In this document: positions 47,715 to 55,507 of the stretch, one piece after another
Numbering within the stretch: position 1 is the first letter of the stretch
Layout of the letters: each line of letters begins with the position of its first letter
Assembly: GCF_000013445.1 (NCBI RefSeq)
Contig: NC_007796.1
Coordinates: 2,392,936 to 2,456,935, forward strand
Origin: Methanospirillum hungatei JF-1
Lineage (GTDB): Archaea > Halobacteriota > Methanomicrobia > Methanomicrobiales > Methanospirillaceae
DNA: 64,000 nt
Reading direction: 5' to 3'
Notes under the pieces: model-generated
Seen by the model: only the letters and a program-made list of their open reading frames with translations
Told to the model about the DNA's origin: nothing
Databases searched by the model: none
Position numbers and translations under genes: made by a program

Positions 47715-48611
47715 ATGGAAGAGATTGTATTAGGCATTGGTATTACTGCATTAGCGGGAGCTTTTGCCACAGTTGCCGGTGCTGCGGAAGATACTGAATC
47801 TGATATCGGATCACAGGGTGACCCGAACTCACAGGTTCAGCTCGCTCCGCAGATGGGTTACATTCACCGCATCTTTAACAAGGCAATCTCCGGAGAGCCA
47901 CCAGCATATGGAGCATGGTGTGCCATCGGAGCAGGTGTTGCCTGGGCATTGATGCAGATTAACTACAACCCGGCACTTGCTATTATTCTCGGTTCAGTTA
48001 TCGCCGTATTTGTACAGGGAATCTACTGTACTTCCGGTTATCTTGGCCGTATAGCAAGTCTTGCAAAGTTCCAGCAGCCGGTATACATTGACATCATCAA
48101 GTCATTGTTATCGGTCACTATGGCACATGCGTTCGTCGCGATCTTTTGTACGGTCGCGATGTGTTACCTGATGGCATCAGCACTCCATCATCCGTTCGCA
48201 CTCCCCCTGCTCGGACTGGTGTGGGGTATTGCGCTTGGTGCCGCAGGATCTGCAACCGGAAATCCATTCTACGGAAAAGAACGTCAGTACCAGAATCAGA
48301 AGTATGGTGCAGGTGTTCCGATCTCCGCATCTGGAAACATCGTCCGATATGCAGAAGCAGGACAGCGTTCCTCCCTTGACAATGGCTGGTTCACCACCAA
48401 GTTTGCCGGTCCGGCATCTGGTATCTGTTTCGGTCTGATTGTCTTCCTCGAACTCTGGCGTACCGTCCTCTTTGAGAAGATGATGGGCGGATGGGGAGCA
48501 ATCATCATGGGAGTTGTTCTGATTCTTGTCTTCACATTCATCGACCGCTGGGTTGAAGTGTGGGGCCGCAAGACCTACGGACCATACACCACCGAGGAGG
48601 CCTCGTCATGA
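47715..48611 (+). CDS. mtrE: Tetrahydromethanopterin S-methyltransferase subunit E
   Basis: A 298-residue integral membrane subunit with about six hydrophobic segments; TESDIGSQGDPNSQVQLAPQ near 37 and YIHRIFNKAISGEPPAYGAW are family hallmarks. The Mtr complex transfers the methyl group from methyl-H4MPT to coenzyme M and pumps sodium ions; MtrC, D and E form the membrane core. It is the first gene of the operon, and its stop overlaps the mtrD start (ATGA). Confidence 0.96.
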   Translation: MEEIVLGIGITALAGAFATVAGAAEDTESDIGSQGDPNSQVQLAPQMGYIHRIFNKAISGEPPAYGAWCAIGAGVAWALMQINYNPALAIILGSVIAVFVQGIYCTSGYLGRIASLAKFQQPVYIDIIKSLLSVTMAHAFVAIFCTVAMCYLMASALHHPFALPLLGLVWGIALGAAGSATGNPFYGKERQYQNQKYGAGVPISASGNIVRYAEAGQRSSLDNGWFTTKFAGPASGICFGLIVFLELWRTVLFEKMMGGWGAIIMGVVLILVFTFIDRWVEVWGRKTYGPYTTEEASS

Positions 48612-49450
48612 GTGCACTCGGAGGTAAGGCAGCCGGCGGTGAAGGGATAAACCCAACCGGATCTGTCGTTGGTATAGTTATTCTCCTCGTCTCGATCGCT
48701 GCAACATACGCACTTGGTTTCTCTATCGTTCCTCTTATCGGAATAATAATCGGTGGAGCACTCATTGGATTTGGCGTTCACTTTGTGCCAGTCGGTGGTG
48801 CTCCGGCAGCAATGGGACAGGCACCCGGTATCGCTACCGGTGTCGCTATGCTTGCCGCTGGTGCCGGTCTTGCAGGTCTCTTCGGTGGGGCCTGGGCATA
48901 TGAGGCAACCGGGGACTTTGCAGTAGCAGTCGCTGGTGGAGCCGTCGGTGGAGGTCTTATGATGGCCATCACCTGTCTGATGGTCAACGCCACCTATGTC
49001 TTCGCAATGGGTATCCCTGCAGCATCTGGTAAGATTGCCAAGGATCCAATCACCGGAGACACCTTCCCTGAATATAAATCACAGGGAACTGAAGGACATG
49101 GTCTGCCATTCATCTCATTCTTCGGAGGAGTTGTTGGTGGATTTATCGCCGGTCTTGGCGGAACCCTGATTTACATCGAACTTCTCGATGTCTACCATAC
49201 AGGACTGCCAGCAATTATGCAGGCCAATCCGGAAGCAATCGAACCTCTGGCAGTATCACTCGCCGGAATCTTTGCTATCGGATTCTTCCTGGTAAACGCA
49301 GTACTGGCAGCATATAACATCACCGGAACTATCGAAGGACCGCATGACCCCAAATTCAAGCGTGTTCCACGGGCAATTATCGGTTGTGCAGTCGCATCAG
49401 CCTTTTGTGGCCTGATTTCGATGCTGATTGTATTAAACACGGGGATGTGA
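48608..49450 (+). CDS. mtrD: Tetrahydromethanopterin S-methyltransferase subunit D
   Basis: A 280-residue membrane subunit starting at ATG 48608, inside the mtrE stop and after a GGAGG site; the frame is open further upstream but that is mtrE shadow. About six membrane helices; GAEGINPTGSVVG-like GGEGINPTGSVVGIVI at the N-terminus and FVPVGGAPAAMGQAPGIATG near 60 are typical. Part of the sodium-translocating core with MtrC and MtrE. Confidence 0.95.
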   Translation: MSALGGKAAGGEGINPTGSVVGIVILLVSIAATYALGFSIVPLIGIIIGGALIGFGVHFVPVGGAPAAMGQAPGIATGVAMLAAGAGLAGLFGGAWAYEATGDFAVAVAGGAVGGGLMMAITCLMVNATYVFAMGIPAASGKIAKDPITGDTFPEYKSQGTEGHGLPFISFFGGVVGGFIAGLGGTLIYIELLDVYHTGLPAIMQANPEAIEPLAVSLAGIFAIGFFLVNAVLAAYNITGTIEGPHDPKFKRVPRAIIGCAVASAFCGLISMLIVLNTGM

Positions 49451-49460
49451 GGGATACAAC

Positions 49461-50360
49461 ATGACAGCAAAAATGGAAGCTTCAGCAGGGGCGATATCTG
49501 AAAACACCCTGATGATCTACGGAATTGTCGTCGCCTTAGTCGGCACATACCTCACATATCTCAATGTTGTAACTGGCATGGCCGTTTTCTCCTTCTTTGG
49601 TGGGATCGGTGCCATTGCAGCAATCTGGTGGGGTTCTGACACAATCAAGCACCTGTGCAGTTATGGTCTTGGTACTGGTGTTCCGTCTGCCGGAATGGTA
49701 GCATTCGGAGCTGGTGCAATAGCCATGATTGCAGGGACAAAATTTGGAATAGCATCACCGATTGTAACACTGATCCTTGCAGCCATTATTGGAGCAGTGA
49801 TCGGGTACATCGCAAACAACGTCATTAACATGAACATTCCGGTTATGATCTTTTCACTCATGAAATTATCAATCGTCGGAGCGCTGACCATGCTCGGATT
49901 TGCCGCTATGTGCACCGGCACCTTCATGTTCAATGGTCTTGTTATCGGTGGGATGACTCTCTCCATGGAACCAGCAGGAGAAGCTGCAGCCGGAGGAGCC
50001 CAGACATTCATGGTAACCGTATTACCTGAATTTGCAGGGTCACTCATCGGTGGATCAGCTCTTGCAGTGATCTTCTTCCTTGGTGCAATGGCTCTGCAGC
50101 ACCCGTTCAATGCCTGTCTTGGCCCGAACGAGTCACAGGACAGAACCCTTATGCTCGCCATCGAAGTCGGATTCCTTTCCATGTTCGTTGTAGCCGTTAT
50201 ATCCTATGCATTCCTTGACATGATGGCCGCAACTGTTGGATTGATAATCTCACTGATTGGGTGGATATACACCTACAAGCAGTACATTGCACTGTCCAAG
50301 CGTGATGCATATGCATGGCTTGATGCAAAGCCAATCATTGAAGTCGGAGGTCATGAGTAA
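49461..50360 (+). CDS. mtrC: Tetrahydromethanopterin S-methyltransferase subunit C
   Basis: A 299-residue membrane subunit with about eight hydrophobic segments. YLTYLNVVTGMAVFSFFGGI near 31 and SLMKLSIVGALTMLGFAAMC are family landmarks. It shares its last base with the mtrB start (TAATG). It is homologous in fold to MtrD and MtrE and completes the trimeric membrane core. Confidence 0.94.
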   Translation: MTAKMEASAGAISENTLMIYGIVVALVGTYLTYLNVVTGMAVFSFFGGIGAIAAIWWGSDTIKHLCSYGLGTGVPSAGMVAFGAGAIAMIAGTKFGIASPIVTLILAAIIGAVIGYIANNVINMNIPVMIFSLMKLSIVGALTMLGFAAMCTGTFMFNGLVIGGMTLSMEPAGEAAAGGAQTFMVTVLPEFAGSLIGGSALAVIFFLGAMALQHPFNACLGPNESQDRTLMLAIEVGFLSMFVVAVISYAFLDMMAATVGLIISLIGWIYTYKQYIALSKRDAYAWLDAKPIIEVGGHE

Positions 50361-50644
50361 TGACGTGGATTCCGGTTCTTCCTGACTTCGGTCTTGGATG
50401 TGATGTATTTGCAGGATTCGTCACCCAGCAGGGTGAGTCTCTGGCACCAATCGTAGAACAGGTGAACAAGCTGGAGAAAGTCACTGACGATATTGTTGGT
50501 ATGCTCTCCGGTGAGGGTAGTTTCCTTGAGAGCTTCCCGAACCGTGAGAAGTCACTGGTATTCGCTGGTGGAATCACGGCCATGTTCTATGGACTTGCTG
50601 TAGGACTCCTGGTCGCCGGAATCATCGTTCTGGCTTTGATGTGA
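50360..50644 (+). CDS. mtrB: Tetrahydromethanopterin S-methyltransferase subunit B
   Basis: A 94-residue small subunit with one C-terminal membrane helix ([20 protein letters not shown]). The soluble N-terminal part has [19 protein letters not shown] near 32. MtrB is one of the small stalk subunits that with MtrA, F and G link the corrinoid domain to the membrane core. It begins within the mtrC stop. Confidence 0.92.
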
Positions 50645-50654
50645 GGGGAGAAAA

Positions 50655-51389
50655 ATGGCAAACAAGAAATCACCAGCCAGTGGATGGCCAATTGTCCAGG
50701 GTGACTTCCATACCGGTGACCCAAACAGCCCGGTGGCAGTTGTTACCATGGGATCCCACCTCGATGAAGGTGCAATCTGCAGTGCAGGAGCAGCCATCGC
50801 CGGATCCTGTAAAACTGAAAACCTCGGTCTGGAGAAAGTCATTGCAAATGTCATCTCCAACCCGAACATCAGGTTTGTCATAACCTGCGGTACTGAGGTT
50901 AAGGGACACCTCTCCGGTCAGAGTCTTATCGCACTTCACCAGAACGGTGTAGACGGCGGAAAAATCGTTGGATCAAAGGGAGCAATTCCGTTCATCGAGA
51001 ACCTTTCCGCTGACAACATCAAACGGTTCCAGGAACAGGTCGAATTAGTCGACATCATGGAATCCGAAGATCTCGGAGCAATTTCAGCAAAGATCAAGGA
51101 ACTGACTGCCCGCGATCCAGGTGCATTCGACGCTGAAGCCATGATCGTTGAGATCAAGGAAGAAGGTGGCGGAGCAGCAGAAGAGGGTGGCGAAGTCAGA
51201 CCAATGTCTGCCGAAGTCGCTCTGATTCATGCACGGATGAAAACAATCCAGCGGACGATTACCGATATTGGTTTCTACGACAAGTACGCTGCCGGTGTAT
51301 ACGGTGGTAAAGTCGAAGGACTTATGATCGGTCTTATCGTCTCGTTTGTGATTATAGGACTCCTGCTTGTAGGACACGGGGTGAGTTAA
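50655..51389 (+). CDS. mtrA: Tetrahydromethanopterin S-methyltransferase subunit A (corrinoid protein)
   Basis: A 244-residue canonical MtrA. The corrinoid-binding domain (about 1-170) starts [20 protein letters not shown] and contains His85 in [11 protein letters not shown], equivalent to the cobalt-ligand histidine of characterised MtrA. An acidic linker ([14 protein letters not shown]) leads to [20 protein letters not shown] and a C-terminal membrane helix ([15 protein letters not shown]). The bound factor III carries the methyl group between MtrH and coenzyme M. Its corrinoid domain is nearly identical to that of the 51593 gene. Confidence 0.96.
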
Positions 51390-51593
51390 GTGTCAGATGA
51401 GAAGAAGTCAGGGCCAATACGTATGGCTGCAATTGATGCCATGATGGCCGACATGAAATACAAGGGACAGATCCTTGCACGTACCAACAAGCTTGAATCC
51501 GGTATCATGGGTGCAGGAATTATCGGATTTGCAATCGGTCTTGCATTTGCCCTTATCCTGGTTGTGCCCGTAATTCTGATGGGAGGAGTCTGA
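51390..51593 (+). CDS. mtrF: Tetrahydromethanopterin S-methyltransferase subunit F
   Basis: A 67-residue protein starting at GTG 51390, directly after the mtrA stop. [28 protein letters not shown] matches the MtrF N-terminal half, and the C-terminus is a single membrane helix ([19 protein letters not shown]). No strong ribosome-binding site precedes it apart from GGGGTGAG within mtrA, so it is probably read by coupling. Its stop overlaps the ATG of the fusion gene (TGATGG). Confidence 0.88.
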
Positions 51594-52339
51594 TGGCAGA
51601 CAAGGGAGAGGCCGCCTCCGGATGGCCAATTGTCCAGGGTGACTTCCACACCGGTGACTCAAAGAGCCCGGTCGCAGTTGTTACCATGGGTTCCCACCTT
51701 GACGAAGGTGCAATCTGCAGTGCAGGAGCAGCTATTGCTGGATCCTGTAAGACTGAAAACCTCGGTCTGGAGAAGGTCATTGCAAACGTCATCTCCAACC
51801 CGAATATCCGGTTTGTAATTACCTGTGGAACAGAAGTCAAGGGTCACCTTTCCGGACAGAGCTTAATCGCCCTTCACCAGAATGGTGTAGACGGCGGTAA
51901 AATCGTCGGATCAAAAGGAGCAATTCCGTTCATCGAGAACCTCACCGGAGATCACATTAAGAGGTTCCAGGAACAGGTCGAGATCGTTGACATCATGGAG
52001 TCTGAGGATATCGGAGCAATTTCAGCAAAGATCAATGAGCTGAAAGCACGGGATCCCGGAGTCTTCCCTGGTGGACCAATGGTTGTCGAGATCAAGGAGG
52101 AGGGTGGAGGCGGTGGAGCAGCCGCATCTGCAACTGCAAACCCGCAGTTCCTTGAGATCGAGGCTAAGCTGGACGCAATCGAAAGCAAACTCGAATTTGT
52201 CGAGGGTGAGATTGCCCAGCGTGTCGGCCGGAAAGTCGGACGCGATATTGGTATACTCTACGGTGTCGTAGCCGGACTTATGTCATACATCATAATAACG
52301 GAATTACTTCCGAAACTGCTCGAGATACTCGCAAAATAA
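51593..52339 (+). CDS. MtrA-MtrG fusion: second corrinoid domain joined to MtrG
   Basis: A 248-residue protein. Residues 1 to about 172 are a nearly identical copy of the MtrA corrinoid domain, including His85; a Gly/Ala-rich linker ([14 protein letters not shown]) follows; then residues about 180-248 are Mtr[41 protein letters not shown] and a membrane helix. No separate mtrG exists in the operon, so this gene supplies MtrG. The canonical MtrA C-terminal helix is missing. The fusion would give the complex two corrinoid domains per A/G pair. It lies exactly where mtrG is expected, between mtrF and mtrH. Confidence 0.92.
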
Positions 52340-52352
52340 GAGGTGATAAGCC

Positions 52353-53375
52353 ATGTTCATGTTTGAAAAGGAACAGACGGTCCTTGATTTCAATGGATAC
52401 AAGATCGGAGGACAGCCGGGAGAATATCCACGTGTCCTCGGTGCATCGATATTCTACAACAAACACGAGACCGTGCTCGATGAGCACACTGGAAAGATTG
52501 ATAAAGCAAAAGCAGAGGCACTCTGGAACCGTTGTCTTGAACTCTACGACGCAACCGGTCACTGGTACTTCTGTCAGATCATCGCTGAATTCGGAGAAGC
52601 CTTCGAGAGCTACATCGACTGGTTCTGTACCATCGATGACCAGTTCCCATTCCTGATGGACTCCTCTGCACCGGCAGCATTGGCACATGCCTGTAAATAT
52701 GTGACTGAAGCAGGCTGTGCAGACCGTGCAGTCTACAACTCCATCAACGGTTCCATCGGACCGGAGAACATCGAGGCAATCAAGAAAAGTGATGTGGATG
52801 CAGCAATTGTGCTGGCATTCAACCCAGGTGACCCAAGTGTCCGTGGGCGTGAGAAAGTGCTCGCAGAAGGTGGCGTTGCCGGTCAGGAGAAGTCCATGAT
52901 GGCAATTGCAGAGGAATGTGGAATCAAGCGTCCAATCCTCGACACTGCAGCAACTCCGCTCGGCCTTGGTTCCGGTGGTTCATTCCGTGAGATCCTTGCC
53001 TGTAAGGCAATCCACGGTCTCCCAACCGGTGGCGCATACCACAACATGACCGTATCCTGGACCTGGCTCAAGCGCTGGAGAAAGAGCGGTATCCTTGAAC
53101 GATACAAAGACGCAGGAACCCTCCTTGAACAGATGGGACACCACCACTTTGGCGGTGTTGAAGGTATCCGTCAGGCTGCCTGGTCCTCTGCTGACATCGG
53201 TTGTAACATTATGGCAGCAACCCTTGGTGCTGACCTTATCATGTTCGGTCCAATCGAGAACTGTGAGGCAACCGCAACTGCAATGGCATTCAGTGACATT
53301 GTTCTTGCAGAGACCCTCCGTGAACTCGGTGGGGATGTAAAGATAGATAAGCACCCAATCAACATGCTGGTTTAA
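52353..53375 (+). CDS. mtrH: Tetrahydromethanopterin S-methyltransferase subunit H
   Basis: A 340-residue soluble methyltransferase of TIM-barrel type that moves the methyl group from methyl-H4MPT to the corrinoid on MtrA. Hallmarks are MFEKEQTVLDFNGYKIGGQPGEYP at the N-terminus, YNSINGSIGPENIEAIKKSD mid-protein and NIMAATLGADLIMFGPIENC near the C-terminus. AGAGGTGAT provides the ribosome-binding site. It ends the operon. With two MtrA-type corrinoid domains upstream, this single MtrH would have to serve both. Confidence 0.96.
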   Translation: MFMFEKEQTVLDFNGYKIGGQPGEYPRVLGASIFYNKHETVLDEHTGKIDKAKAEALWNRCLELYDATGHWYFCQIIAEFGEAFESYIDWFCTIDDQFPFLMDSSAPAALAHACKYVTEAGCADRAVYNSINGSIGPENIEAIKKSDVDAAIVLAFNPGDPSVRGREKVLAEGGVAGQEKSMMAIAEECGIKRPILDTAATPLGLGSGGSFREILACKAIHGLPTGGAYHNMTVSWTWLKRWRKSGILERYKDAGTLLEQMGHHHFGGVEGIRQAAWSSADIGCNIMAATLGADLIMFGPIENCEATATAMAFSDIVLAETLRELGGDVKIDKHPINMLV

Positions 53376-53712: not shown

Positions 53713-54984
53713 CTATTTCAAGGGTTTCAAGGGGGGATCCGTAACTTGTATGCCTGCATCAGCAATTTTTTTCCGAATCATATCAGCGATTTCGAACTGT
53801 TTTGAGGCACGTAATTCTGCCCTGATATCCTGAAGGATACTGAGCGGAGCACTGGTTTCGGGGAGGAACCGAATGCCAAGGATCTCTCCATATTCAATTA
53901 ACGCTTCGAGATCACCATGTGCTGCAAGGGCATGGATTGCTGCAATAGCATTCGGCGTATTGAGATCAGATTCCATAGCTGCGATAAATGCATCCCGTCC
54001 TTCAGGATAGGGACCATTGTCGGTTATTGCGATAGCACGGATGTGTTCCAGGGCTTTTTTTGCATTGAGGAGACCTTCTTCGGATACCTGGAGCGGTGAG
54101 CGGTAGTGGGAGAGGAGAATAAAGTACCTGATGATATCTTTGTCCCATGTTTTGAGAGCATCCTGAATTTTGATGAAATTTCCCAGGGATTTTGACATCT
54201 TTTCCCCCTCAACGGTCAAAAATCCGGTATGCATCCAGTACCTGACCATCGGATGTTTCCCCTCAAGTGATTCCATCTGGGCTATCTCGGCTTCATGGTG
54301 GGGGAAGATAAGATCCAGCCCGCCGCCATGGATATCATACTGCTGGCCGAAATATTTCTCAGTAATGGCAGTATCCTCAATATGCCAGCCCGGACGGCCT
54401 CTTCCCCACGGAGAGTCCCAGGTATATTCACCATATTCTCCCCGCTTCCATAATACAAAATCTGCAGGATTGTGTTTTTTGGTGTCAGTAACCCGGCTGA
54501 TTCGTTTATCCTTTGATTGCCCGGATAATTCCCCGTTTCTGGGAAATGAATCAATGTTAAAGTAGACACCGGTTTCTGTGATATATCCAACACCAATCCC
54601 CACCAGTCGCTCTATCTGGTTGATGATTTCCGGGATGTGGGTTGTTGCCCGGGCGTGATAACTCACCGAATCAATGCCAAGTGAGAGCATATCTTTTATG
54701 TATTCACGCTCAAACTTCCTTGCAAGATCTTTTTGTGAAATTTTCTCTTCTTGTGCCCGGTTGATGATTTTATCATCGACATCGGTTATATTCTGGATAT
54801 ACAGTACCTCCTGCCCGGTCCAACGGAGATACTTTGCCAGTACATCAAAGACCACATAGGTCCGTGCATGACCAAGATGCGGATAATTGTATACCGTCGG
54901 ACCACAGACAAAGAGCGAAACCCGATCAGGATAGAGTGTCTGGAATGGCTCGACCATTCTGGATAAGGTACTATACAGTTGCAT
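53713..54984 (-). CDS. cysS: Cysteinyl-tRNA synthetase
   Basis: A class I aminoacyl-tRNA synthetase of 423 residues from ATG 54984; the frame is open further upstream only because it runs through the tRNA gene at 55006-55079. HLGHA (36-40) is the HIGH motif, KMSKS is at 262-266, and Cys27 in FVCGPT plus His229/His230 and Glu231 in PHHEAE are zinc-site residues. The remaining zinc ligand is normally a cysteine in GWHIEC; here Asp204 (GWHIEDTA) occupies it, so the zinc site may be altered. It charges tRNA-Cys with free cysteine. The gene follows tRNA-Cys by 21 bases on the same strand. Confidence 0.93.
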   Translation of the reverse strand: MQLYSTLSRMVEPFQTLYPDRVSLFVCGPTVYNYPHLGHARTYVVFDVLAKYLRWTGQEVLYIQNITDVDDKIINRAQEEKISQKDLARKFEREYIKDMLSLGIDSVSYHARATTHIPEIINQIERLVGIGVGYITETGVYFNIDSFPRNGELSGQSKDKRISRVTDTKKHNPADFVLWKRGEYGEYTWDSPWGRGRPGWHIEDTAITEKYFGQQYDIHGGGLDLIFPHHEAEIAQMESLEGKHPMVRYWMHTGFLTVEGEKMSKSLGNFIKIQDALKTWDKDIIRYFILLSHYRSPLQVSEEGLLNAKKALEHIRAIAITDNGPYPEGRDAFIAAMESDLNTPNAIAAIHALAAHGDLEALIEYGEILGIRFLPETSAPLSILQDIRAELRASKQFEIADMIRKKIADAGIQVTDPPLKPLK

Positions 54985-55005
54985 ATTGAAATCACCCAGC
55001 AGAAA

Positions 55006-55079
55006 CGCCGGCGGAGGGAATCGAACCCCCAAACATTCGCTTTGCAGGCGAAGGCATTCAGCCACTCTGCCACACCGGC
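55006..55079 (-). tRNA. tRNA-Cys (GCA), upstream of cysS
   Basis: Read on the minus strand: acceptor GCCGGTG pairs with CGCCGGC, D arm GCA/TGC with an AGTGGC loop, anticodon stem TTCGC/GCGAA with loop CTGCAAA (anticodon GCA), a 5-base variable loop, T arm GGGGG-TTCGATT-CCCTC. The base after the acceptor stem (position 73) reads G, whereas tRNA-Cys normally has U73. CCA is not encoded. The D loop and loop bases resemble bacterial tRNA-Cys more than the second copy at 55436 does. cysS starts 21 bases downstream on the same strand, so the two are likely co-transcribed. Confidence 0.85.
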
Positions 55080-55435
55080 ATCAGAAGACTCATCTTACAG
55101 ATACAGACACATCAGGTGGATAATAATCCTCATGCGGAGAGAGGAGTCAACCACGCTGATCGGTGCAGATACTTTCCTGCAGATTCTGTCCATACTATCG
55201 TATGCCAGATTCATTTAAATATATCAAGAATCAGGCAAAATAAACCGGATAATGGAAGAGATGAACACAGAATATCCGTATAAAAATGGTACCTCATGAA
55301 TATCAAGGCAAATATTGGAGGGTAAGAATCTTAACCAGTAATGTGAATCCCCATCATTCTTATTGCCGAATGTAGTCGTTTTATATACTTTTACGTCGAC
55401 CTACATTAACGCAGGTGAGATATCCTGTGGTGATT
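55080..55435. promoter_or_regulatory. Region between the two tRNA-Cys genes
   Basis: No gene is seen in these 356 bases. TTTATATAC at about 55379-55387 is a TATA-like box some 50 bases before the plus-strand tRNA-Cys. The promoter of the minus-strand tRNA-Cys/cysS unit must also be here; ATTTAAATATA near 55212-55222 is the best candidate. Confidence 0.4.
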
Positions 55436-55507
55436 GCCAAGATGGCGGAGCGGCCACGCGGCTGACTGCAGATCAGCTACACTCCGGTTCAAATCCGGAT
55501 CTTGGCT
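55436..55507 (+). tRNA. tRNA-Cys (GCA), archaeal type
   Basis: Acceptor GCCAAGA pairs with TCTTGGC; T73 follows, the expected discriminator for tRNA-Cys. Anticodon stem GCTGA/TCAGC encloses CTGCAGA (anticodon GCA), and the T arm is TCCGG-TTCAAAT-CCGGA. CCA is not encoded. It differs from the 55006 tRNA at most positions outside the anticodon loop. It is followed at once by a T-run. This is the likely substrate for the SepRS/SepCysS route, whose second enzyme is encoded at 57758. A degraded copy occurs at 62460. Confidence 0.93.

Follow-up and report, generated by a model that had tools for sequence, protein, structure and literature searches.

The only MtrG of Methanospirillum hungatei JF-1 is encoded as the C-terminal part of a fusion protein whose N-terminal part is a second MtrA corrinoid domain, and Mtr of the Methanomicrobiales very probably has a duplicated corrinoid carrier, with two tethered, interchangeable shuttles per protomer and six per trimer. 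Mtr is the Na+-pumping methyl-H4MPT:coenzyme M methyltransferase, which performs a step of hydrogenotrophic methanogenesis. The operon was analysed within a window of 64,000 nucleotides (the whole stretch of DNA studied here), and the fusion was followed through the sampled genomes of the order.

The MtrA-MtrG fusion is a standard feature of the Methanomicrobiales and has been known since 2009. The observation made in an earlier note on this DNA is therefore not new: it had been printed in that year for JF-1 itself (PMC2686161) and analysed in 2015 (PMC4632066). Anderson et al. (2009), who included JF-1, described as a signature of the order MtrA and MtrG fused, together with a separate MtrA and no other MtrG (PMC2686161). 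Wang et al. (2015) named the fusion gene mtrA-2b, documented its order-wide synteny, put the similarity of the copies down to long-lasting gene conversion and reported a parallel MtrA-MtrF fusion in the Methanococcales; their sampling included one Methanospirillum, and every copy pair grouped by species (PMC4632066). The fusion was mentioned again in a survey of 2018 (PMC6053082). The gene described here is the same one, with the same position between mtrF and mtrH, the same domain order, no free mtrG and mtrA-1 retained; it shows no difference in gene structure from mtrA-2b, JF-1 having been included in both studies (PMC2686161, PMC4632066). The additions made here are modest: wider sampling, a lack of the fusion in the rest of the phylum as far as sampled, and the finding that conversion is episodic. 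A literature search found no paper on purified or imaged Mtr from the Methanomicrobiales and, in titles and abstracts, nothing usable on M. hungatei proteomics naming the fusion.

The mtr operon (47715-53375) has the order E-D-C-B-A-F-(A-G)-H, and every subunit scores above the cut-off of its Pfam family (Table 1). The fusion read from the sequence in the earlier note is real, with the corrinoid domain, a Gly/Ala linker and MtrG in one open frame, and the gene order given there was confirmed. The TGA stop codon of mtrF and the ATG of the fusion gene share one base (TGATGG at 51591-51596), an overlap that suggests translational coupling. Elsewhere in the window, two tRNA-Cys genes lie on opposite strands about 350 bp apart (55005-55080, minus strand, and 55436-55507, plus strand). 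The former adjoins an open reading frame on the same strand (53713-55065, minus), which resembles a cysteinyl-tRNA synthetase by eye, and overlaps its called GTG start.

Table 1. Genes of the mtr operon of M. hungatei JF-1 and parts of the MtrA-MtrG fusion (positions in the window).
Feature	Position	Strand	Evidence
mtrE	47715-48611	+	Pfam, above cut-off
mtrD	about 48608-49450	+	Pfam, above cut-off
mtrC	49461-50360	+	Pfam, above cut-off
mtrB	50360-50644	+	Pfam, above cut-off
mtrE, mtrD, mtrC and mtrB together (normal 5' part of the operon)	47715-50644	+	PF04206, PF04207, PF04211, PF05440
mtrA-1, corrinoid domain (His85) and C-terminal membrane helix	50655-51389	+	PF04208, 1.8e-86; TIGR01111, 348 bits
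mtrF, free-standing	51390-51593	+	PF09472, 9.8e-20
mtrA-G fusion (mtrA-2b of Wang et al. 2015, PMC4632066), P0001, 248 aa	51593-52339	+	PF04208 and PF04210 in a single open frame
Second corrinoid domain, residues 1-172 (His85 codon 51845-51847)	51593-52108	+	PF04208, AlphaFold2 model
Gly/Ala-rich linker, residues about 170-183, predicted disordered	52100-52141	+	pLDDT
MtrG part, residues 184-248, long helix including membrane span	52142-52339	+	PF04210, TIGR01149; PDB MtrG chains 9QTQ_S, 8Q3V_G
mtrH	52353-53375	+	PF02007, 3.9e-94

Profile searches placed MtrA (PF04208) at residues 4-172 of the fusion protein (9e-82) and MtrG (PF04210) at residues 184-236 (2.4e-21). The AlphaFold2 model consists of an MtrA-type domain, a disordered linker (pLDDT below 50 at residues 170-188) and a long MtrG helix, and its corrinoid domain superposes at 1.5-1.6 A on two crystal structures of MtrA, 5L8X and 5LAA. 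The linker is similar in length to that of MtrA (about 15-20 residues). As had been noticed from the sequence, the cobalt ligand His85 (His84 in M. marburgensis) is conserved in the second corrinoid domain; it is kept in both copies of JF-1. The MtrG part had been called complete, and it does match both PF04210 and TIGR01149 (the latter also above its cut-off), but it aligns to the PF04210 profile only from position 9. The alignment begins at positions 5-11 of the profile in fused MtrGs and mostly at positions 1-5 in free MtrGs outside the order, which indicates that the extreme N-terminus of MtrG was trimmed or replaced by the linker.

The absence of a free mtrG, claimed for the window in the earlier note, extends to the whole genome of JF-1 (3,544,738 bp, a single contig), in which profile searches returned a single MtrG match (PF04210) and two MtrA matches. 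Exactly one MtrG match was found in 163 of the 199 sampled Methanomicrobiales genomes, and never more than one; the great majority of the matches in the order lie in open frames of 200-320 aa, most of them about 240-320 aa, and some of the genomes without a match are incomplete drafts. The search of the order that had been proposed was carried out: the complete gene was legible in 65 members (JF-1 and the neighbourhoods of about 60 other genomes with an MtrG match), and it is a fusion in 65/65. Outside the order, within the same phylum, MtrG is free, with frames of 57-143 aa for every match with a listed frame. All 91 copies checked across the order have His85, and both this residue and an MtrG motif of 13 residues are invariant in 37 aligned fusions, an alignment that leaves out L109, which contains a stop. 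Four fusions have GQ changed to AQ or GE beside the His motif, with His85 itself intact. Such variation directly past the motif (SGQ to SAQ or SGE) was noted at L074 (genome G079), L078 (G017), L089 (G064) and L080 (G047); in L074, SAQ occurs in the fusion copy only. Among the order members examined, short or missing MtrG frames (L094, L095, L096, L014, L020-L023, L028 and L033) were considered as free mtrG and rejected, since they end at contig ends, where two similar genes break short-read assemblies; the frame of L094 also carries a frameshift. In another Methanospirillum, a third gene, distantly similar to mtrA, lies outside the mtr operon (L055; genome G167, C1:5994-6488); it scores above the NF002126 cut-off and below the mtrA equivalog cut-off.

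The two corrinoid domains of JF-1 share 88.6% protein identity over about 167 aa and 83.8% DNA identity. Their description as nearly identical in protein holds for residues 25-117, which are identical, and is generous for the whole domain, the differences being confined to the N-terminal 24 residues and the part past residue 117. The many synonymous differences reported between the copies were also found (dS about 0.74), with about 30 such codons within residues 25-117; dN is about 0.071 and dN/dS about 0.1 (Nei-Gojobori). Sequence comparison thus indicates that this region, which includes His85 and the segments modelled as touching MtrH and MtrCDE, is under purifying selection. Many relatives have two domains that are 98-100% identical along their entire length. 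Placing all mtrA-1 copies of the order in one clade was rejected on the corrinoid-core tree (AU p 7e-28), which is the signature of gene conversion; selection and conversion, offered in the earlier note as alternatives, both shape the pair.

Of 63 genomes, 27 have copies that fail to group with the other copy of the same genome, and all 10 sampled members of Methanospirillum are among these; such copies group by type among close relatives in Methanospirillum, Methanocorpusculum-like and further lineages. A first tree had presented Methanospirillum as the sole genus escaping homogenisation, a reading dropped when denser sampling found the same in other genera. Judging from these trees, gene conversion between the copies is intermittent and not, as the 2015 sampling suggested, continuous. 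For JF-1, the data reject a sister relationship of the two copies (p 4e-5), and the pair has no recent tract of conversion that reaches significance (permutation p 0.20); L040, also from Methanospirillum, has a recent tract (p 0.0025, uncorrected for 10 tests). The sites fixed by copy type in Methanospirillum are at the domain ends only (nt 7-26 and 475-482, i.e. codons 3, 5, 6, 9 and 159-161), as expected if conversion tracts stop before the ends.

In the solved Mtr, MtrA, MtrB, MtrF and MtrG each contribute one stalk helix with a cytoplasmic N-terminus (PMC10998594). The helices of MtrA and MtrG are adjacent, and in the membrane the central bundle of three helices consists of MtrG (PMC10998594, PMC12774963). 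Attached by a Gly/Glu linker, the corrinoid domain is flexible and too mobile to appear in the Methanothermobacter map, and its segments beside the His touch MtrH and MtrCDE in AlphaFold-based models (PMC10998594). Since the stalk N-termini are cytoplasmic, a corrinoid domain at the N-terminal end of MtrG would sit on the correct side of the membrane, beside the MtrA helix; as MtrG is an obligatory stalk helix with no free copy, each protomer should carry two corrinoid domains. We propose a duplication of mtrA in the Methanomicrobiales ancestor, with the second copy shedding its membrane helix and becoming joined to mtrG. Each protomer of (ABCDEFG)3 would then hold two flexible corrinoid domains, tethered to the MtrA helix and the neighbouring MtrG helix, and both would take methyl groups from MtrH and deliver them to the cavity of MtrCDE by the same chemistry, while episodic gene conversion and purifying selection would keep them alike. 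This implies that the fusion would be expressed as one intact chain, that both domains would be loaded with cobamide and act as equivalent carriers, and that a trimer would have six of them. MtrG may be released proteolytically from the fusion.

A point against six carriers is that other orders make do with three corrinoid domains per trimer, which leaves no evident need for six. Methanothermobacter and Methanosarcina need only a single corrinoid domain in each protomer (PMC10998594, PMC12774963), which would suit a structural or regulatory second domain that folds and is rarely loaded or used, the fusion mainly supplying MtrG. This is unlikely, as His85 and residues 25-117 are in JF-1 the same as in mtrA-1 despite the synonymous changes, dN/dS is low, and His85 was found in every copy checked across the order. 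That the gene is an artefact of assembly or sequencing joining two genes has practically no probability left: the likeness of the two domains is sufficient to break short-read assemblies, and several drafts stop inside the gene, but the same fusion, with conserved linker and context, occurs in many independent genomes, including single-contig ones of several families, and was published for several strains (PMC2686161, PMC4632066). The possibility of an assembly error, raised in the earlier note, is thereby ruled out.

The two carriers could also be specialised, e.g. one favouring docking to MtrH and the other docking to MtrCDE or reactivation. The Methanospirillum copies have diverged at residues 1-24 and past 117, and have codons fixed by type; these positions, however, are at the domain ends and not near His85, the contact segments do not differ in JF-1, and in many relatives the domains hardly differ over their whole length. 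Such a division of labour is very unlikely. It is likewise a long shot that where conversion lapsed (e.g. in Methanospirillum) the domains are non-redundant and begin to specialise in different half-reactions or states, as a two-carrier relay. The different methyl routing foreseen in the earlier note is made less likely by the same identity of residues 25-117, which include the putative segments of contact with MtrH and MtrCDE. Interchangeable carriers are the simplest reading.

A close parallel to the fusion is mtrA-2a, encoding MtrA-MtrF, of the Methanococcales and Methanocella arvoryzae (PMC4632066). Both place a second corrinoid domain on a small stalk subunit encoded in the mtr operon, and the mtrA-2a copies are likewise homogenised by conversion; mtrA-2a differs in its partner, which is MtrF and not MtrG, and its authors hold that the origin was independent (PMC4632066). 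Compared with the canonical Mtr(ABCDEFG)3 of Methanothermobacter and Methanosarcina mazei (8Q3V, 9QTQ; PMC10998594, PMC12774963), all eight subunits have homologues in JF-1, and the corrinoid fold and His ligand are the same, whereas each protomer of the canonical complex has a single MtrA and a separate MtrG, giving three corrinoid domains per trimer. Two corrinoid carriers per protomer seem to be the rule throughout the order Methanomicrobiales, and the solved structures represent one-carrier versions of Mtr only; a structure or a cobalt count from a member of this order would therefore be informative.
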